Virus record (IMG/VR): IMGVR_UViG_3300030099_008323
Location: 1 to 64,000 of that record
Origin: a virus
DNA: 64,000 bases
Reading direction: 5' to 3' (one strand)
The notes under the pieces were generated by a model. The model saw only the letters and a list, made by a program, of their open reading frames with translations, did not search any database and was not told the origin of the DNA. Shown piece by piece: positions 20,530 to 29,915 of the stretch. Both the position numbers and the translations under genes were made by a program. Within the stretch, counting starts at the first letter, position 1; every line of letters starts with the position of its first letter.

Positions 20530-22386
20530 TTAAAATATTTCACAAGCTCCGCCTGCACAAGCTAACTCGCCAGATAAATTAGTGTCATCTTCAATCTCCA
20601 TAATGTTCTCTGTGTTGATATCTTTCAAAGAGTTTAAAAGAACCTGAAATTTTTCTAAAGAACAATCTTCAAAGGGTGCTTGCTTATAAGTGTGGTCTGA
20701 GTATGGTAACACTGATAGACCATTGTAGAAATTTCTATTTTCCCACATCCACTCGCCCACATCAATCCACTCGGCGTCTTTTATCGAAATGGTTGCCGAA
20801 ACATTATGAGTGTTTTGTCCTCTTCTGTGACCAGGTTGAACCCACTCCTCTGTCACTCGTTTAACTCTTTTCAATAACTGCAGTGCGCTTTCAGATCTTG
20901 TTATTGCACTATCAGGAGATTTTTGGGGCACTTGAATGACTGCAGTGTCATGAGGACGAAAATACTCGTCCTCAATTAATTCTGGATGGTACATCGAGAG
21001 ATAATTATATATTGCCTCATTCTTCCCAACCCTTAATCTCCGGATATAGTAATCACTATGCCACGCATGAATGCCTGAGCTAGTACCTAAAGTTAGAGAA
21101 GTTGTCCCAGCCGGCTTAACACAGGTGGTCCTAGCTGCTGGCTTGATACCAATCTTTTCAGCTACGCGCTTATTTTCTTTCTTGATCACTAGTGAAGCTG
21201 CCTTCATATCAAGTTCTAGAACCTTACCAGACGCAATTCCAGTCATGGAAACACCGATTAGTGCATCTTTCTCAGTATTTCTTCTCCATATGTCACGTAA
21301 ATAATGAAAATCAGTATAGCCTGCTTGCAAGGTGCCTATAAAAGCTGCTACGCGGGCTCGATTCTCATACTCTTGCTGAGTTTCTAGATCAGAGGCATTG
21401 ATTTCTGTTAAGTTACAAAACTGGTATGGACGCAAAGCGATTTCGCAGCAAGGATTTGTGCCCCAGTCTTTATCGTTAGACAAATAAAAGCCAGGCTCAC
21501 CAGATCCAGCCTCTTTAATCCGCTCCCAAATATCCATGAAAAACTCGCGAGTGATAAGATGCCTCATCAATGCAACTGAATTGTTTGCTCTGCCTCTTTG
21601 GGGATTTGCTTCCCACCAGTTACCAGCTTTTGCGGCAAGCATCTCTTCATCGTCTGCGGAAAAAAGTGAAATAAGAGCAGCCCTACGGATCCCCCCGGCA
21701 AGAACAGCATCAGCAATATGGCAAATGATATCATGTACTTCGATAGGTTCAAGCTTGTCACCATTATCCTTTTCTTCAAGTATGCCCTGCACCTTGAGGA
21801 GACATTCTTTTAACGGCTGAGGGCCGGGAGCTTTACCTCCACTTGTAACTAGTCTGCTACCCTTCGGACGGATATCAGAAAAATCAAATTTTATTCTTGA
21901 GCCGCCTTTAAAATAAGATTGCATTAAAATTTTTATTGAATCGGCCCATCCTTCGATTGAATCTCCGATAAGAAATCTTCTACTGCGTTTTGAATTCGGT
22001 TTCTGAATTTCCGGGAGCTTATCAACATGATGCCTTTGGACAGAATATCCAACGCCAGTGCCCCCAAGAAGGAGAAACATGCACTCAGAAAAAGCAGAGA
22101 GATGATCGACAGGCATGTAAGCACAGTTGTATACCCGGTTAGGTGCCACTTCAATTGGCTTGCCCCCAAACTGCATGGAGCGCATTGACGGTAATACTTT
22201 TTTTTCATAGACATAATTATATGCATCTTCTATTTCCTTCCTCATATGAGGATACTTTTTAATATGCATCTTTTTATTTCTGGTAACTAATTCCTGCCAA
22301 GTCTCTCTTCTATTGAGATCTGGTATATACCTAGAATATTTCATGTGTACTGTAATATCTGATAAAATTTTATTTTGTAATTCCAC
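20530..22386 (-). CDS. nrdJ: Ribonucleotide reductase class II (B12-dependent, monomeric)
   Basis: 618 residues, GTG start at 22386 with AAGGAG upstream. Family marks: YNCAYMP, GGTGVGYSVQ, GGIRRAALISLF, NPCCEIALRPYQFCNL, VKPAGTTSLTLG, and the redox tail ACAGGACEIF with two Cys five apart. The enzyme makes deoxynucleotides from ribonucleotides using adenosylcobalamin and needs no oxygen. It resembles the single-chain RTPR type used by many marine phages. Host or salvaged B12 would be needed; glutaredoxin may supply electrons. Confidence 0.96.
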   Translation of the reverse strand: MELQNKILSDITVHMKYSRYIPDLNRRETWQELVTRNKKMHIKKYPHMRKEIEDAYNYVYEKKVLPSMRSMQFGGKPIEVAPNRVYNCAYMPVDHLSAFSECMFLLLGGTGVGYSVQRHHVDKLPEIQKPNSKRSRRFLIGDSIEGWADSIKILMQSYFKGGSRIKFDFSDIRPKGSRLVTSGGKAPGPQPLKECLLKVQGILEEKDNGDKLEPIEVHDIICHIADAVLAGGIRRAALISLFSADDEEMLAAKAGNWWEANPQRGRANNSVALMRHLITREFFMDIWERIKEAGSGEPGFYLSNDKDWGTNPCCEIALRPYQFCNLTEINASDLETQQEYENRARVAAFIGTLQAGYTDFHYLRDIWRRNTEKDALIGVSMTGIASGKVLELDMKAASLVIKKENKRVAEKIGIKPAARTTCVKPAGTTSLTLGTSSGIHAWHSDYYIRRLRVGKNEAIYNYLSMYHPELIEDEYFRPHDTAVIQVPQKSPDSAITRSESALQLLKRVKRVTEEWVQPGHRRGQNTHNVSATISIKDAEWIDVGEWMWENRNFYNGLSVLPYSDHTYKQAPFEDCSLEKFQVLLNSLKDINTENIMEIEDDTNLSGELACAGGACEIF

Positions 22387-22399
22387 TATAATACTCCTT

Positions 22400-23758
22400 T
22401 TAATATCTTTTTTTTACTGATTGTTTATATTTGGTTTTTAAAGCGTCGGCTAAATCTCCAGGACTCATTGCTGGTGATACGATCGGTGATTCTACTTTTG
22501 CCAAAACTTTTATTTGCACATTGCTGGTGTCCATAAAAATAGGAAAAACTAATCCATCAGGACCATTACGATTTTTTGCTATAAACATCCTACCAGTGTT
22601 GGAGTTTCTGTCTTTAATTGTTCGTGATATTGAACAAATAAAATCAGACACAAAACACTTATTAAATGCTTCAGATATTGATTCCATAGTCACCACTTCT
22701 GCGTTCAATCCCGTCCTATTTGTTTGGGAGGCTGTCCATATCGGACATTTAAATTCTTGTGCAATTGCCCTTAGGTTTTCATAAATAGACTCTAATTCAT
22801 TGCGCTTCTCTTTAAAATTTGTCACGGGTCGAAGCAAATCAGCGTAATCTACTAGAATCATATCGATTTTGTGATTTGTTTTTTTTAATTTTTCTAGATG
22901 CGATCGTATAGTATTTGTTGAGGCGGTTTTTGTTGGATATTCTTTAATGATCAATGATCCTTGCAGGTCGCTAATTGCCTCCAATACTTCATCTTTTTGG
23001 CCGAACAAAGAGCTAAGAGGCACAGAGCTAATACAGCTATCGTAACGCTGGCCTGTAACGGCTTCTGACAGCTCTAGCGTGTAGTGTACAACATTCTTGC
23101 CATTTTTAAGTGCTTGGGCGCCTAGATGAGCTAACACCATAGATTTGCCGGCGCCTGTGGGGGCAATGACAACTCCTAACTCACCAGAACCCAGTCCTTT
23201 TTTAGTTAAAGCATCAATCTTCTCCCATCCAGTTGATATGGGATTTCTTGCTTTTATCTCATATCTTGTCTCGAAGTCTTTTATAAAGTCATGTCCAAAA
23301 TCATTGTCCATACCAAGATTAAGCGCTTCATCAATTACCTTACGAACCTGATCATATGAAGAGTTCTGAATCAAATCAACGGATTTCATTAAGGCCTCTT
23401 TTAGCTTCTGCTTTTTGCAAAAATCTAAGCTGGTGTCTTTAATATACTGTTCATCTTGTACGCGTTTAATACATGTCCTGGCAAAATAGTCCCGTACCTG
23501 TTTTTTTACCGCATCATTGCATTCTTCTAATTCATTCCTTAGAATACTAGGCAAGATACTATTTGTTGGGTGCACTCCATATTTTCTACGATATTCATAT
23601 ATTTTTCTTACAAAAACTCTAAGATATGAAAGCTCAAAAAATTTTGTATCCAAGACCTCCTCGATCTGATCTGCAAAAGGTCGGTCTTCTAAAATTAATT
23701 GTGCCAATGTCTCTTGGAACTGCTTCCCATATTTTGAGAAGTCCACTTCTCTAGTCAT
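22400..23758 (-). CDS. Replicative DNA helicase (DnaB/gp41-like)
   Basis: 452 residues. RecA-type motor: Walker A APTGAGKS (199-206), YTLELSE, Walker B MILVDYADLL, TASQTNRT, and FIAKNRNGPDG with the arginine finger region. The N-terminal 180 residues are helical like the DnaB/gp41 collar. It unwinds DNA ahead of the phage polymerase. No primase is seen in the window. Confidence 0.93.
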   Translation of the reverse strand: MTREVDFSKYGKQFQETLAQLILEDRPFADQIEEVLDTKFFELSYLRVFVRKIYEYRRKYGVHPTNSILPSILRNELEECNDAVKKQVRDYFARTCIKRVQDEQYIKDTSLDFCKKQKLKEALMKSVDLIQNSSYDQVRKVIDEALNLGMDNDFGHDFIKDFETRYEIKARNPISTGWEKIDALTKKGLGSGELGVVIAPTGAGKSMVLAHLGAQALKNGKNVVHYTLELSEAVTGQRYDSCISSVPLSSLFGQKDEVLEAISDLQGSLIIKEYPTKTASTNTIRSHLEKLKKTNHKIDMILVDYADLLRPVTNFKEKRNELESIYENLRAIAQEFKCPIWTASQTNRTGLNAEVVTMESISEAFNKCFVSDFICSISRTIKDRNSNTGRMFIAKNRNGPDGLVFPIFMDTSNVQIKVLAKVESPIVSPAMSPGDLADALKTKYKQSVKKRY

Positions 23759-23797
23759 AAATTTTTTCCTCGCTTGTTTAAATACTTTAGGAACATT

Positions 23798-24775
23798 TCA
23801 TCTATTGTCTAATGAGATTCTATTAAAGTCTTGGAACAACTCAATAAAGTTTATCTCCCCAAAGCCATCTTTCAGCATCATCTTCAATAACTCAGTTTTG
23901 TTAAATGATAAATCTGGGTCGCCTAAAGTCTCTTTTATTATATTTTTTGAGTTTATAGATAATGAAGGCGCATAAAGTTGCATCATCTTATAATTCCTGC
24001 TAATCATATCTTTTGACTCCAAGATCTTAGTGTAAAGCTTAAGCTGCTTCTCCTCAAGCATTTCTTCACAGTGAGCATAGATATCTGTTGTTGTTGCTGC
24101 ATCTATATTCTTTAAGAAGGGAAATCTGTTAGCTACAACCTTGAGGCCGGCTCCGGGGACGCCTTCGATATTGTCAGATTTATCACCAACAATGGCGCGC
24201 GCTAAGGCAAAATTATTAGGGTGTATTTTAAATTTATCCACAATGGAATTTTCATTTAAGATCTCTTTTTGAATTGGGCGGTATTGAACCGTCTTAGAAT
24301 TCAAAAGTTGAAAAAAATCTTTATCACTGGATATAATTAATTTTTCATAATCCTCAAACGCCTTAAACTGCGATATATACGCAATGATATCATCCGCCTC
24401 GGTTGAATCAAACATAAATTGAATAACGGGCATTTGATTAAAGTATTCGATTAGTCTAGATTGCTGCCAAAATTTATTCTCCATCTCTTGCTCGGGAGAC
24501 ATGTTTCTGACTGCTCGGTTAAGTCTGATTGGCTTACGGCCAGCTTTGTAGTCTTTTTTGAGCTTCTTGCGTTTTGCAGATCCTCCAGCACCATCCCAGC
24601 AAATTATAATTAAGTCAACTGGTTTTGCTTCCCTGCAAATTTTTTGTATGCTCTGGATACAACCTTTAAGGGCACCGATTGGTGCACCATTAAGTGATAA
24701 GCTGGGATTAACAATATAGTTTCGAAAAAATAAATTTAGCTGATCAATAATCAGCACCCTCTTCTTAGCATGCAT
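23798..24775 (-). CDS. 5'-3' exonuclease / RNase H (FEN family)
   Basis: 325 residues of the FEN/T4 RNase H type. Metal-site acidic residues appear in LIIDQLNLFFR, WDGAGGSAKRKKLKKDYKAGR, DSTEADDIIAY, ISSDKDFFQLL, and GDKSDNIEGVPGAGLKVV with the helix-hairpin-helix. It removes RNA primers and 5' flaps. The family A polymerase in this window lacks such a domain, so this gene may serve it. Confidence 0.93.
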   Translation of the reverse strand: MHAKKRVLIIDQLNLFFRNYIVNPSLSLNGAPIGALKGCIQSIQKICREAKPVDLIIICWDGAGGSAKRKKLKKDYKAGRKPIRLNRAVRNMSPEQEMENKFWQQSRLIEYFNQMPVIQFMFDSTEADDIIAYISQFKAFEDYEKLIISSDKDFFQLLNSKTVQYRPIQKEILNENSIVDKFKIHPNNFALARAIVGDKSDNIEGVPGAGLKVVANRFPFLKNIDAATTTDIYAHCEEMLEEKQLKLYTKILESKDMISRNYKMMQLYAPSLSINSKNIIKETLGDPDLSFNKTELLKMMLKDGFGEINFIELFQDFNRISLDNR

Positions 24776-24814
24776 TAAATACCTTCTTGTAAATTATTTC
24801 TCTCTGGCGCCGAA

Positions 24815-25171
24815 TCAATTAGCTTCCGGCCTGTAGATTCTGCTAACAACTTTATTCCATCTCACCGGAATAAAAGAAAACACACCATCTATTTTCCTAG
24901 CATCATTTGACATCCTGGCTAGATGCTGCTTGATTGAGCCAGGATGCACCTTAAAAAACTTAACTTTTAAAATAGTGCGCTCTGCAGTTGAGCTAACAGA
25001 TTTTGCTGGGCCGGCGACTGTAACAACTGTAATTCCGCATACACCACGTAAGTTATCTGTTACTTTGGTGATATTTTTATCTCTATGGGAGCGTAGTACA
25101 ACATCAGCTTCCCATAGTATTTCTTGAAAAGCTTCTTTCACTAGGCTTTTTAATTTATTTTTCATGCTCAT
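24815..25171 (-). CDS. Hypothetical protein (118 aa)
   Basis: Starts MSMKNKLKSLVKEAFQEIL, an amphipathic helix like those opening two other proteins here (53370 and 61780). The centre is beta-rich (GVCGITVVTVAG, RTILKVKFFKVH). A late-motif match lies 12 bases upstream of the ATG, with AGGAGG between. It may be a virion-linked protein, by these signs only. Confidence 0.55.
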   Translation of the reverse strand: MSMKNKLKSLVKEAFQEILWEADVVLRSHRDKNITKVTDNLRGVCGITVVTVAGPAKSVSSTAERTILKVKFFKVHPGSIKQHLARMSNDARKIDGVFSFIPVRWNKVVSRIYRPEAN

Positions 25172-25182
25172 CCTCCTAACAG

Positions 25183-25193
25183 AATAAGTAGTT
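25183..25193 (-). promoter_or_regulatory. Candidate late promoter (RACTAYTTANT)
   Basis: Coding strand AACTACTTATT, 12 bases before the ATG of the 118-residue gene. Confidence 0.4.
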
Positions 25194-25241
25194 TAAAGTT
25201 TGTACATTTTTATACTACCTTCATTAGTAATTTATTAAGCA

Positions 25242-26354
25242 CTACTCTTCCTGATCAATATCATAGAAATCTTCCGCTTTACCTTGCTTGCTTTCAAAAC
25301 GCATAATCACTTCCTCATCCATGATTTGAAGAATCCGATTTCTAAATTTTTCACCCTGAAGCTTTTCTTTCCATTTGGATGCTTGGAACTTTTCACTAGA
25401 GCCATCTTCATGAATTAAATTATACCAGGCGCCAGCTTGTTTAAGATTGTCAGATCCTTTCACGGCCTCAAACCAACTTTCTTCATCTTGGATTCCTACT
25501 TCACTACCCCATAGAATTTTAAAAGTACACTGACGCCCTTCTGTACCAAACCTACTTTTGTTAAGAGTTACTTTAACTTCTGACCCAACTCTATATCCAT
25601 TGTCATCAATGATATATGAAGCTTTTGCTTTTCTTTTGGTTAGCCAGATTCGCAATGAGTATGCATAGTGCATCGCTTTGCCACCGGGGGTAACATAAGG
25701 AGTGGTCATAGCCTCTGCAATATTGCTAGTGATATTTGTTTTAAGCTGGTTAAGCACCAAAAAAGTAGATTTAGAAGCAGCAATAGGGACTGTTAGTTTT
25801 GACATGCCCTTTGCAAGGATCCTAGGTTTGACTGCCATTGATGATTGAGGGTTAAAATCACCCTCAACGTCACTAATAGAAGGAGTTAGGGCTAGACTAT
25901 CCCAAATAAAAAGCATTTTATTTTCATGCGACCCAAGAAGCTCTTCTATTGTTTCTAGCACATATTCAACGCTTGGTGGATTTAAATACAATAAGTTATG
26001 AATATTGCATCCAGCGCTCTCCAAAAATTCAGAGGAGATAGCAGCTTCTGCATCAAAATATACAACATCGATGCCCATTTTTTGAGCATTGGCAGCAATC
26101 TGTGCAGCCATATAAGATTTGCCTGATCCCTCTAATCCGGCAATTTCAACAATTTTTCCTGTTGGGATCCCAGCTAGTTGGCCTCTGCATATCATGCTAT
26201 CTAACCAGCGAGATCCGGTTGGGATCCACTCCGTTACATCTGTTGGATTATCTTTTGATAGGTCAAAAGCAACTTGAATGCCTGCCTTCTTGTTGATGAG
26301 ACTTCGCATCTCATCTATACTTAATCTTCCCAATTTTTTTTGTTTTTTAGCCAT
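25242..26354 (-). CDS. uvsX: UvsX/RecA-like recombinase
   Basis: 370 residues. Walker A GLEGSGKS (73-80), a Walker-B-like LFIWDSLAL, and the L1/L2 DNA loops near SSMAVKPRILAKG and NQLKTNITSN, then TPGGKAMHYA. It resembles T4 UvsX in having a short C-terminus. It pairs homologous strands for recombination-dependent replication and repair. AAGGAAA lies before the ATG, which is inside the end of the upstream gene by 34 bases. Confidence 0.94.
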   Translation of the reverse strand: MAKKQKKLGRLSIDEMRSLINKKAGIQVAFDLSKDNPTDVTEWIPTGSRWLDSMICRGQLAGIPTGKIVEIAGLEGSGKSYMAAQIAANAQKMGIDVVYFDAEAAISSEFLESAGCNIHNLLYLNPPSVEYVLETIEELLGSHENKMLFIWDSLALTPSISDVEGDFNPQSSMAVKPRILAKGMSKLTVPIAASKSTFLVLNQLKTNITSNIAEAMTTPYVTPGGKAMHYAYSLRIWLTKRKAKASYIIDDNGYRVGSEVKVTLNKSRFGTEGRQCTFKILWGSEVGIQDEESWFEAVKGSDNLKQAGAWYNLIHEDGSSEKFQASKWKEKLQGEKFRNRILQIMDEEVIMRFESKQGKAEDFYDIDQEE

Positions 26355-26623
26355 GTTATTTCCTTTGCTGCTGGTATCTCCATAGTTACGTCTGGGTCTT
26401 GCAACTCATACATAACTGGTGTATATGTATTATAATCACGATTTAGCTGATCAGCTAATGAAATAAGCACAGGCTCTATTTTTTTTATTTGCCTTGTTAC
26501 CTCTAATCGGTCTTGCTGGAGTTCAGATTTTATGCGTAACAATCTATTCTCCAGTATGGCACCAGCAGCTAAGCCTAAACAAAACAAAGATATCGCGACA
26601 CCAGTGAAAAGTAAAGATTCCAT
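26321..26623 (-). CDS. Single-pass membrane protein with coiled coil (100 aa)
   Basis: One hydrophobic span (MESLLFTGVAISLFCLGLAAGAIL, about 4-24), then a charged heptad-like helix (IKSELQQDRLEVTRQIKKIE) and a soluble end. N-out/C-in or the reverse cannot be decided. It has no Shine-Dalgarno but shares the leader AGTAGCTATG with two other envelope-related genes. Role unknown. Confidence 0.6.
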   Translation of the reverse strand: MESLLFTGVAISLFCLGLAAGAILENRLLRIKSELQQDRLEVTRQIKKIEPVLISLADQLNRDYNTYTPVMYELQDPDVTMEIPAAKEITWLKNKKNWED

Positions 26624-26656
26624 AGCTACTAGTAACTAGTGTGCTATTTCTAAATT

Positions 26657-26688
26657 AAGACACCTGTAGACCCGTGCCTTCCTGCGGT
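26657..26688 (-). ncRNA. Conserved hairpin element, copy B (after lipoprotein gene)
   Basis: Coding strand ACCGCAGG, then stem AAGGCAC, loop GGGTCTACAG, stem GTGTCTT. It starts 10 bases after the lipoprotein stop. Copy A after ssb has the same flank and loop but a different stem sequence that still pairs. No U tract follows here, so it is not a plain terminator. Confidence 0.6.
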
Positions 26689-26697
26689 ATTATCTGA

Positions 26698-26994
26698 CTA
26701 GTTGTCAGTAACACCAGTAGAAGTGTTGTTGGTATTACTGTTGCCAGTAGTGCCTTCAACATTTGTTGTGGTGTTGGTTGTTGTACTATTGGTATTGTTA
26801 GTATTAGTCGTTGTACCTGTTGTAGTTCCAGTGTTGGTGGTTGTATTAACAGGCGTAGTTGTAACATTGCCAGTAGTAGTGGTAGCATTACCAGTTGTAT
26901 TAACAGTATTTGCACCATCATTATTTGTAGGTGTGCAACCTACAAGCAAAGCACCCGTAGCCATAACAGCCAAAATTCTCTTCATTAAAATCAT
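26698..26994 (-). CDS. Thr/Asn-rich lipoprotein
   Basis: 98 residues. Signal MILMKRILAVMATGALLVGC with lipobox LVGC, Cys20. The mature part is almost only Thr, Asn, Gly, Val and Ser in imperfect short repeats (TTNTGTTTGTTT and similar), probably an extended surface chain. ATG at 26994 has AAGGAA upstream. A surface lipoprotein in a phage suggests exclusion of other phages or an envelope change; this is inference. Confidence 0.7.
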   Translation of the reverse strand: MILMKRILAVMATGALLVGCTPTNNDGANTVNTTGNATTTTGNVTTTPVNTTTNTGTTTGTTTNTNNTNSTTTNTTTNVEGTTGNSNTNNTSTGVTDN

Positions 26995-27018
26995 AGTAAA
27001 TTCCTTATATAAAAAAAT

Positions 27019-27050
27019 GAGGCCTCTGTAAACCCAGGCCTCCCTGCGGT
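27019..27050 (-). terminator. Conserved hairpin element, copy A (terminator after ssb)
   Basis: Coding strand ACCGCAGG, then stem GAGGCCT, loop GGGTTTACAG, stem AGGCCTC, followed by A and seven T's. It starts 7 bases after the ssb stop. It works as a rho-independent terminator by form, and shares flank and loop with copy B at 26657. Confidence 0.8.
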
Positions 27051-27056
27051 GGAGGA

Positions 27057-27806
27057 CTATGTTCCTAAAAGCTCCGTAAAGGCACGGTCAACCTGGCTAC
27101 TAACCTTGTTGCCCTCATACTTAACGGTCTCAGATGACATTTCTTCAGCGTCTTCCTCGGACAATAGATATTCATCTAGCATAGACTGCACTTGTTGTGG
27201 CGACTTGCGCTCAAAAACCTCATCAAAGTCAGGGATTGATTCCAAATAAGTATTAATTGTGTCGTTTGATTTTGACAACGGAGATGATTTTCTCCTAGGA
27301 ATAATTGTAGTTTGCGGAAATTGCGCGCCTGCAGGCTTACCATAGTTAATCGTAAGGTCTGTGCCTTCTTTAACATCAGTGATATCTCCATATTCTGGAT
27401 TTAAAACTAAATTGAGAAGCTCTTTATATGCAGTCTTTCCAAAGCCCCACAGGCGTACGCCTTTATCTTCTTCGCCTCGGACAACAACTGGCGCAAAGAA
27501 TCGCTGACGAGCAGATAAGTTCTTAGCCATGCGGACTGAATCATCTGAGCCGTCCTTATAAAGTTGACGGATAAAATCATTCAGCGGATCATCTTCGCCA
27601 AAATTTTTCTTTGGGCTCAGAAAGCCTGGGTTCTTCCCCAAATTATAATGGAACCAATATTCTTTAAATGGATCGCCATCAGAGGTTGGTACGATTCGAA
27701 TCGTTTGTTCGCCATCCTCTGGTTTCCAGAAGACGCTTTTGTTACTCCCGCCACGATTCTCTAGCGCTTCGCGCTTTGCTCTCATTTTTTCTAAATCTAA
27801 AGCCAT
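27057..27806 (-). CDS. ssb: Single-stranded DNA-binding protein (gp32-like)
   Basis: 249 residues of the T4 gp32 type. N-terminal basic LAST-like region (MRAKREALENRG), OB-fold core with FWKPEDGEQTIRIVP, KEYWFHYNLG, RFFAPVVVRG, VRLWGFGKTAYKEL. The Cys/His zinc site of gp32 is not evident, and the acidic tail is moderate (LLSEEDAEEMSSE), not terminal. It coats ssDNA for the phage polymerase, UvsX and helicase. A hairpin in its leader and a terminator after it suggest its own control. Confidence 0.9.
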   Translation of the reverse strand: MALDLEKMRAKREALENRGGSNKSVFWKPEDGEQTIRIVPTSDGDPFKEYWFHYNLGKNPGFLSPKKNFGEDDPLNDFIRQLYKDGSDDSVRMAKNLSARQRFFAPVVVRGEEDKGVRLWGFGKTAYKELLNLVLNPEYGDITDVKEGTDLTINYGKPAGAQFPQTTIIPRRKSSPLSKSNDTINTYLESIPDFDEVFERKSPQQVQSMLDEYLLSEEDAEEMSSETVKYEGNKVSSQVDRAFTELLGT

Positions 27807-27839
27807 TTTCTTCTCCTTTTTTTGCTATAAGCTATAGTA

Positions 27840-27861
27840 CAGTCAGCTAATGTCCTGACTG
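27840..27861 (-). promoter_or_regulatory. Hairpin in the ssb leader
   Basis: Coding strand CAGTCAG-GACATTAG-CTGACTG, a perfect 7-base-pair stem 34 bases before the ssb ATG. T4 gp32 represses its own mRNA at a leader pseudoknot; this hairpin could play a similar part, which is inference. Confidence 0.45.
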
Positions 27862-27912
27862 GCTTGATTTACACACACATAATAAAAACTTATTTTTGAG
27901 TGTAAATAAAAA

Positions 27913-28740
27913 TTAAACATATTCCTGTATAAAAGATGCACAGTGCTCAGAATAAACGTAATTTATATCATATGAGGTAGAATATATTGAAAAACCAGAA
28001 TCTATATTATCATCTGCTTTATTTTGTATAAAACACCTTATATCATGAAGAGCATCTTTATCGCTTTCTACCCTATTAGAGCTTAAGCCAAAAAAATATT
28101 TCCGCGCTCTTGGATATTGCAAATCATATAATAACTTTTCTTTCTTTGTTTCATAATTAACAACCCCTAAAGTGCGTATATTTGAAGTAACGCCGGCCTG
28201 CGGCATACTGTTGAGAAGCGGCTCAGTATTCTTGAAAACATTAATCATATGGTAAGTGCTAGATATGACATTATTCATATCTTGCCAATAATTCTGTAAA
28301 GATACGCTCTCTAAAATATCCTCAACATTTTTATTGCATACCACGTACATCATGTCAAGTGCTGCAGATCTAACATATTGTTGTAGAATCCCATAAGTTG
28401 CTCTCTCATAGAGGCGTTTTTCGCCGGCTAGCTCACCATTATCAGGTTTTATATATAAAATAGTGACACTTCTATCTTTCATCTGTTCTAGAAGTCTTAG
28501 CGCGCATCCACTTATTTTGCTAGCGCCTGAAAGTATAAGAGTTATGTCACCTTTACATTTACGCAGGTTAAGGTTTTTATAATTTTTTTCATAATCTTCA
28601 TGTGTCTCTTGATTGGCGATATGAATAAAGTTGCTATATCCCTTATCTTCAGAGGCGATTGAAAATATCTTGTATTGTGCATAATTACTAAAACTGTTAG
28701 CTAGTGCGCTACCTGCATCACCTAATCCTATTATGTTCAC
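27913..28740 (-). CDS. Conserved phage protein, possibly tubulin/FtsZ-like
   Basis: 275 residues. The start NIIGLGDAGSALANSF resembles the FtsZ/tubulin first loop (GVGGAGxN), and TLILSGASKISGCALRLLEQM followed by VTILYIKPD sits where the Gly-rich tubulin signature and next strand would be, but the GGGTGTG motif is not kept. Relatives occur in other marine T4-like phages as hypothetical proteins from memory. It overlaps the polymerase gene by 4 bases, so it is made with replication proteins. Confidence 0.6.
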   Translation of the reverse strand: MNIIGLGDAGSALANSFSNYAQYKIFSIASEDKGYSNFIHIANQETHEDYEKNYKNLNLRKCKGDITLILSGASKISGCALRLLEQMKDRSVTILYIKPDNGELAGEKRLYERATYGILQQYVRSAALDMMYVVCNKNVEDILESVSLQNYWQDMNNVISSTYHMINVFKNTEPLLNSMPQAGVTSNIRTLGVVNYETKKEKLLYDLQYPRARKYFFGLSSNRVESDKDALHDIRCFIQNKADDNIDSGFSIYSTSYDINYVYSEHCASFIQEYV

Positions 28741-29915
28741 CTTAACCTCTTCATACTTCCATAATCTAAGCCAATGCTAATATTAGTCTTAAATTTTCCT
28801 AACTTAGTAGTTGAAAAAATATCTACCGCCTTAGTGATTATATCTTTATCTTCTTTGGCTAAGTCTAATATTAAACTATCGTGAACGCAAAAAGAAACAA
28901 AAGATCTCCTGCCCTTTAAAAATTTATCTACCTTTATCATCGATGTTAAAAATAAATCACTAGCAGTGCTTTGAATTAAATAATTCAAGGCTTTGGATTG
29001 GTCAACTTGTATTTGTCTATTATAAGGCGTTTTTACATGCCCGTTAACATAATATTTTTTTAAAGCTAACTCGCGGTTGAACCTATCATTTAGTTTTTTG
29101 TTAGATGCCTTTGGATTATATAGCCATGCAAATACTTTCTTTTTAGTCTGCTCTCTGGAATATTTATCAGAAAAGACGTCTTTTGCTATCCATGAGTGTA
29201 AATCATTTTTTGGCTGTAGTTCACCGACTAAGCCCAAGAATGCGCGTAGCTCAGCTGAGTTGTAATCCAGCTCAAGCAACAAATCATTTTTCGGCTTAAT
29301 GGCGCTGCGTAACTCACGATTTAAAGTTAATATTGGGAAGCTGTTTGCTTTTGTTGCCAATCGACCGGTAACTGTCTTCCAAGGGCAATATGATATATTC
29401 TTTGATGAGTTTTTTATTTTAGGGAAACTATTTCTAACCTTTGGGTTATAAAAATTAAGTTTATCATATTCCAAATTTAAACTTTGCTTGTTTATTTTCT
29501 TAAGCAAAATAATTAAATCTCGCATTAAATCATGGTTATCAGGCTTCTTATAGTTTAAAAAAACCCAATCAATTATTTGTTCACGAATGCTATAAAAATC
29601 AATTAAAAACTGTGCTGGTACTGTGTCGTAGAGGCAAATATCATCTAAATTTATCTTTGATATCTTGATAGACCTCATCATGGCCCGGGCTTTTTTATTA
29701 ATCTCGTCCCAATCATCCTTAATGTGATCAGGGCAAACCTGGCTTAAGCTTTTTCCAGCAGCCCAAACCTGAGCATATTGAATTTTGTCATGCATAAAAT
29801 TATTCGTGGGAGCCCATGTTCTAGTTAGGGTGTGCTGGTCATAATCTTGGATAACTTTGCCATTACAAAATATACCATGACATTCTTTTTTTGAATCTAG
29901 TGTTTGAAAAAGCAA
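28737..29915 (-). CDS. Family A DNA polymerase, short form
   Basis: 392 residues. Motif A LLLELDYNSAELR with catalytic Asp217; motif B REQTKKKVFAWLYN (Arg254, Lys258, Phe262, Tyr266, then Asn where Gly is usual); motif C CVHDSLIL with Asp346 but Ser347 in place of Glu. No 3'-5' or 5'-3' exonuclease domain is present. The two catalytic Asp are kept, so activity is likely. It may fill gaps or work in repair beside the DnaE polymerase, or be the main copying enzyme with help. Confidence 0.9.
   Translation of the reverse strand: MLFQTLDSKKECHGIFCNGKVIQDYDQHTLTRTWAPTNNFMHDKIQYAQVWAAGKSLSQVCPDHIKDDWDEINKKARAMMRSIKISKINLDDICLYDTVPAQFLIDFYSIREQIIDWVFLNYKKPDNHDLMRDLIILLKKINKQSLNLEYDKLNFYNPKVRNSFPKIKNSSKNISYCPWKTVTGRLATKANSFPILTLNRELRSAIKPKNDLLLELDYNSAELRAFLGLVGELQPKNDLHSWIAKDVFSDKYSREQTKKKVFAWLYNPKASNKKLNDRFNRELALKKYYVNGHVKTPYNRQIQVDQSKALNYLIQSTASDLFLTSMIKVDKFLKGRRSFVSFCVHDSLILDLAKEDKDIITKAVDIFSTTKLGKFKTNISIGLDYGSMKRLR

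Follow-up and report, generated by a model that had tools for sequence, protein, structure and literature searches.

Two copies of a 32-nt RNA element are found on the minus strand of the window, by which we mean the whole 64,000-nucleotide stretch of IMG/VR virus record IMGVR_UViG_3300030099_008323 that was analysed. Judged by covariation among its relatives, the element is an H-type pseudoknot with a 3-bp stem (S1) and a 7-bp stem (S2). It most often follows the gene for a phage single-strand DNA-binding protein (ssb), and stands in for a terminator-like hairpin that related phages have at the same site. We propose that it is probably an intercistronic 3′-boundary element for the preceding gene, acting as a decay block, a leaky terminator or both. 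The features of the region, in the order in which they are transcribed, are:

27057..27806, minus strand: ssb, a gp32-like single-strand DNA-binding protein (phrog_1192), the gene before copy A
27019..27050, minus strand: pseudoknot copy A (sequence and model R1, 55 bits)
27048-27050 with 27032-27034: S1 of copy A, ACC with loop GGU
27036-27042 with 27019-27025: S2 of copy A, GAGGCCU/AGGCCUC; its L1 is GCAGG and its L3 UUACAG
26698..26994, minus strand: small Thr/Asn-rich putative lipoprotein between copies A and B (LVGC lipobox in the sequence)
26657..26688, minus strand: pseudoknot copy B, with the anatomy of copy A (model R1, 50 bits); stem AAGGCAC/GUGUCUU, loop GGGUCUACAG
26321..26623, minus strand: small membrane-anchored protein with no PHROG match, the first gene past copy B, starting 33 nt after it
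25242..26354, minus strand: UvsX-like recombinase (phrog_97, E 1.9e-53), the last gene of the ssb-uvsX block

Copy A reads ACCGCAGG-GAGGCCT-GGGTTTACAG-AGGCCTC and is followed by ATTTTTTTATAT; copy B reads ACCGCAGG-AAGGCAC-GGGTCTACAG-GTGTCTT and is followed by AATTTAGAAA. Both are sense to the window genes, copy A lying 6 nt beyond the ssb stop codon and copy B 9 nt beyond that of the lipoprotein. The initial annotation had described them as two minus-strand hairpins with compensating differences, and the sequence bears this out: pairs 1, 6 and 7 of the stem are altered on both sides with pairing kept, and pair 4 is G-C in copy A and G-U in copy B. A third copy is absent from the 186-kb record, with up to 3 mismatches allowed. 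Neither copy is unusually stable in single-sequence folding (z of -0.84 for A and -0.20 for B), and the case therefore rests on the relatives.

Two further observations were made in this region. The gene order at 20530-29915 (minus strand) is PolA-like polymerase, ssb, uvsX, 5′-3′ exonuclease and DnaB-like helicase, which is like that of Flavobacterium phage immuto and of LysYB1, and unlike that of T4. There is also a separate 7-bp hairpin (27840-27861, minus strand, CAGUCAG-GACAUUAG-CUGACUG) 33 nt before the start codon of ssb; it may be an operator in the leader of that gene.

The core pattern ACCGCAGG-N4-10-GGGTYTACAG is present in at least 120 IMG/VR stretches, and reversed-sequence controls gave 0 or 1 matches. 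The arms are 7 nt long in 119 of 126 distinct matches, with 7/7 or 6/7 pairing in 117. Altogether there are at least 315 non-redundant occurrences in at least 246 loci, all copy counts being lower bounds. The carriers are uncultured phage contigs, mostly marine, and the large contigs have 1–3 copies per genome, mostly within about 1 kb.

The earlier claim that the covariation points to a selected RNA structure is strongly upheld, since copies exist in relatives and their stems pair. The flank and loop shared by the two hairpins are indeed conserved, but a hairpin is only part of the structure, because the flank ACC pairs with the loop GGU. More generally, the element is assigned as an H-type pseudoknot because changes in the 5′ NCC (of NCCGCAGG) are matched by changes in the loop GGN′. 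The 32-nt consensus is 5′-NCC-RCAGG-[RRGGCNY]-G-GGN′-YUANAG-[stem]-3′, in which S1 is 3 bp, L1 is RCAGG, S2 is 7 bp, L2 is a single G and L3 is YUANAG.

Covariation was analysed in 125 distinct 32-mers; further scans had brought the set to 126, from which one (L341) was dropped as chance. Pair 1-19 is A-U in 51 copies, C-G in 24, G-C in 12, U-A in 7, U-G in 10, G-U in 5 and unpaired in 16. It has double-sided changes in 53 copies, and on a tree of 137 ssb proteins it changes at least 29 times. Pair 2-18 is C-G in 113 copies and G-C in 12, the latter all double-sided changes. Most of these G-C forms were fetched by a pattern that required a difference on both sides, and the whole of IMG/VR (2.9 million contigs) was therefore searched for one-sided changes, with C replaced and G kept or G replaced and C kept: there were none. 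A swap at pair 3-17 gave 19 pattern matches, with a convincing stem in none except possibly L502. S2 has double-sided changes at four pairs. Over all pairs there are 197 double-changed cells, compared to 61 in shuffles, with 97.9% paired. G-U pairs are tolerated in both stems (36 at pair 12-29 and 15 at pair 1-19). The unpaired bases R4 C5 A6 G7 G8, G16, A22, A24 and G25 are nearly invariant. A C-rich tract 5′ of the element (UCCUCC, CCCCC) was considered as a pairing partner of the stem and rejected: such tracts are found mostly near ssb, and by eye they do not vary in step with the stem.

Several variants of the element were seen. L3 has lost one base in L473, gained five in the third copy of L477 and gained about 31 in L476 (G003 151900-152300), where the copy lies 5 nt 5′ of a tRNA-Thr gene. 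The two phages L478 and L479 have a second conserved site, where the pseudoknot takes a GGC...GC(U/C) form and its loop is shortened; the gene preceding this site ends in GKS(N/T)ES. Seven loci (L212, L221, L222, L227, L230, L244 and L265) have UAGUUGACCnnCA 5′ of the pseudoknot and UCC...GGA 3′ of it, possibly forming an extra small helix.

Rfam was searched, as had been suggested, with the window and ten divergent loci. No Rfam 15 family reached its gathering threshold at the element or in the ten loci, and the window gave tRNAs only. There were no copies among 50,697 named phage records, and the pseudoknot is absent from the immuto, Mel-JY01, SPO1 and LysYB1 loci. Matches of four variants in named phages by blastn were chance only, the one inspected lying within a gene for RNA polymerase. 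Named relatives of the ssb protein reach an identity of about 40% at most. Among bacterial and archaeal genomes (84,980 species) the exact ACC form is found in one contig (L200), which is 5.6 kb long, belongs to a Flavobacteriales MAG and is probably from a phage. No earlier description of the pseudoknot was found in the literature searched.

The position of the element with respect to genes is well defined. The copies are nearly always in the sense orientation: judged by simple frame calls, on which all the context counts rest, 228 of 285 copies have the end of a sense frame of 80 codons or more no farther than 30 nt away, compared to 32 for the opposite strand. Apparent antisense or divergent contexts are few, and those inspected are mostly antisense frames of low-complexity lipoprotein genes. 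The stop codon is mostly 6–9 nt 5′ of the pseudoknot (median 9 nt), with a sharp edge at 5, and the next start is 22–29 nt beyond it (median 26 nt). These limits agree with the footprints of one ribosome that terminates and another that initiates, and the knot would therefore just fit between the two. Stimulation of stop-codon readthrough or frameshifting was also considered, the 5–9 nt spacing being suggestive, but the spacings are not periodic in 3 nt and each of the three stop codons occurs.

The gene before the copy is ssb in 150 of 295 cases. Among the other upstream genes are those for a cold-shock protein, RecA and a Cas4-like exonuclease, and in a GC-rich phage a SU10-type major capsid protein gene lies upstream, 56 nt away. 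The downstream proteins fall into 76 clusters, of which UvsX (68) and an FKBP isomerase (31) are foremost. Five copies are followed after 5–8 nt by a tRNA gene, with no ribosome-binding site there, and in one case (L313) the next gene is convergent. Nearly all copies are between co-directional genes and not at the ends of transcription units. In L030, L046, L180, L184 and L082, tandem copies about 39 nt apart share the same two flanking genes.

In order to compare loci irrespective of the element, 80 ssb loci were picked solely by protein similarity. The pseudoknot is present in 67, with 106 model matches, all sense. It is directly behind ssb in 46 of these and farther downstream in 21, where the nearest copy is usually behind a tightly coupled next gene. 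The remaining 13 loci have a strong hairpin between ssb and the next gene (GGGGGGCUUCGGCCCCCCUUUUUUU, GGGGGGCGAAAGCCCCCCUUUUUU or longer), followed by a U-run in 11 and by a poor one in L195 and L198; several are near-identical, so that about eight are independent. Parsimony on the ssb tree requires at least three changes between the pseudoknot and hairpin states. Terminator-like hairpins are likewise found directly behind the ssb-like gene of the cultured Bacillus and Lysinibacillus phages SPO1 (L487 3985-4055) and LysYB1 (L489 3805-3872); in immuto and Mel-JY01, ssb and the next gene nearly abut. Because the pseudoknot-less ssb loci, SPO1 and LysYB1 all bear a hairpin there, the conclusion is that the pseudoknot stands in for a terminator-like hairpin at the same site.

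It is of interest to ask how far the element is itself a terminator. It could be a plain intrinsic terminator (a leaky attenuator), with the pseudoknot replacing the GC hairpin as the pause and release structure and having no role in decay. Besides the hairpin and U-run found in its place, the tail would fit: in AT-rich phages it is A-N-UUUU, with at least 4 U at +2 to +8 in 67% of copies. However, in loci of more than 50% GC such a U-run is present in only 1 of 9 copies, where the tail is often AC-rich (ACACCACACACC) and still G-free. The property of the tail that is constant across phages is that G is almost lacking at +2 to +8, and the U-run is therefore not a defining part. The initial annotation had concluded from the tails that copy B is not a simple terminator. 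This is right for copy B, whose U-run is poor, and for the GC-rich phages, but since the element replaces terminator-like hairpins in relatives, a connection with mRNA 3′ ends should be kept in view. A terminator hairpin also does not require the conserved S1 and loop bases, the copies are almost always inside co-directional blocks, and a promoter would not fit before the next start. We thus regard termination as the sole function as rather unlikely.

The other explanations are less likely again. A translational operator in the style of T4 gene 32, where ssb nucleates on the knot, spreads over the linker and silences the downstream gene, might be suggested by the ssb association and by the layout: as described for T4 and RB69 (PMC535899, PMC3014915), the H-type pseudoknot gives way to a G-poor, unstructured linker and then to a Shine-Dalgarno site. 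Yet the element is never 5′ of ssb itself (0 of 275 downstream genes); there are also the copies before tRNA genes, before a convergent gene and after a capsid gene, and terminator-like hairpins take its place, all of which make this improbable. A riboswitch or small self-cleaving ribozyme controlling the downstream genes would suit a compact pseudoknot with about ten nearly invariant unpaired bases, but we consider it very unlikely, given that the downstream genes share no common pathway and are not a set of related genes with a common leader, that some are tRNA genes, that tandem copies occur 39 nt apart and that nothing in Rfam matches. Least credible of all is a DNA-level site for recombination or mobility, by which gene cassettes would spread, with the RNA structure secondary. 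Copies do flank exchangeable small genes, and duplicates occur side by side, but the G-U pairs in both stems and an orientation that follows transcription point to RNA.

On the basis of these observations, we favour the 3′-boundary element. The next gene starts only a few tens of bases on, and complete termination would keep it from being transcribed. A block to 3′-5′ decay is preferred, with leaky termination where there is a U-run. We hypothesise that 3′-5′ exonucleases would degrade the rest of the transcript as far as the pseudoknot, which would then form a protected 3′ end for the ssb mRNA. In AT-rich phages, polymerase stopping in the U-rich stretch behind the pseudoknot would give the same protected end, while the downstream genes, among them the lipoprotein gene and uvsX, would be expressed to a lesser extent from readthrough transcripts. 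There are precedents: in E. coli, parts of operons are protected by internal structures that follow upstream genes (PMC5927463), and the gene 32 mRNA is the most stable mRNA of T4 (PMC3014915). The proposal is also supported by the anchoring of the element on its upstream side, together with the diversity of the downstream genes. Against it, the spacing on the side of the next start is no less tight than on the side of the stop codon, and an effect on downstream translation may also be present. The nearest copy is farther from ssb in the 21 loci noted above, and the strict conservation of the unpaired bases is more than a generic exonuclease block needs. A more speculative reading, which we put forward with some reserve, is that a dedicated factor (a phage protein, host nuclease or polymerase) recognises the invariant bases of L1 and L3, or that these bases form a tertiary fold which by itself withstands bacterial exonucleases. 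If so, the element would be a phage-made and possibly switchable 3′-end signal, and a bacterial-virus counterpart of exonuclease-resistant RNAs. Alternatively, the L1 and L3 bases may do no more than build base triples.

The pseudoknot is compact and very well supported. Most members sampled from one uncultured phage lineage carry it, and unrelated GC-rich phages have it as well. At a fixed regulatory site, phages have here exchanged an ordinary hairpin for a conserved pseudoknot, and with its 32 nt the element is easy to test as an exonuclease block, as a terminator and for binding of proteins.

Intercistronic hairpins and leaky intrinsic terminators are familiar in phage operons, as exemplified by the CUUCGG hairpins of T4. 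Such hairpins, including the 3′ hairpin of SPO1 gp32.4, resemble the pseudoknot in lying behind ssb and ahead of the next gene, in interchanging with it among close relatives, and in the U-rich tail in AT-rich phages. They differ in that the element is a pseudoknot of conserved sequence, not a tetraloop hairpin, and needs no U-run in GC-rich phages. The L17 downstream element (RF01708), which follows the genes for ribosomal protein L17 in bacteria (PMC2864571), is similarly a structured RNA in the potential 3′ UTR of one kind of gene, but the Rfam search did not match the phage element to that family. The protective internal 3′ structures of E. coli (PMC5927463) are also alike, being stable structures within an operon, behind a favoured gene and without a terminator U-run, and the phage element similarly lies just behind its upstream gene. 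Those structures are unrelated hairpins, whereas the phage element is one conserved, homologous class. Finally, the autoregulatory pseudoknot of gene 32 in T4, T2 and RB69 (PMC535899, PMC3014915) is likewise H-type, both stems covarying in the phage element, with a link to phage ssb and an unstructured stretch and ribosome-binding site after it. The element described here differs from it in lying behind ssb and not before it, in its strict sequence conservation, and in having many copies away from ssb.
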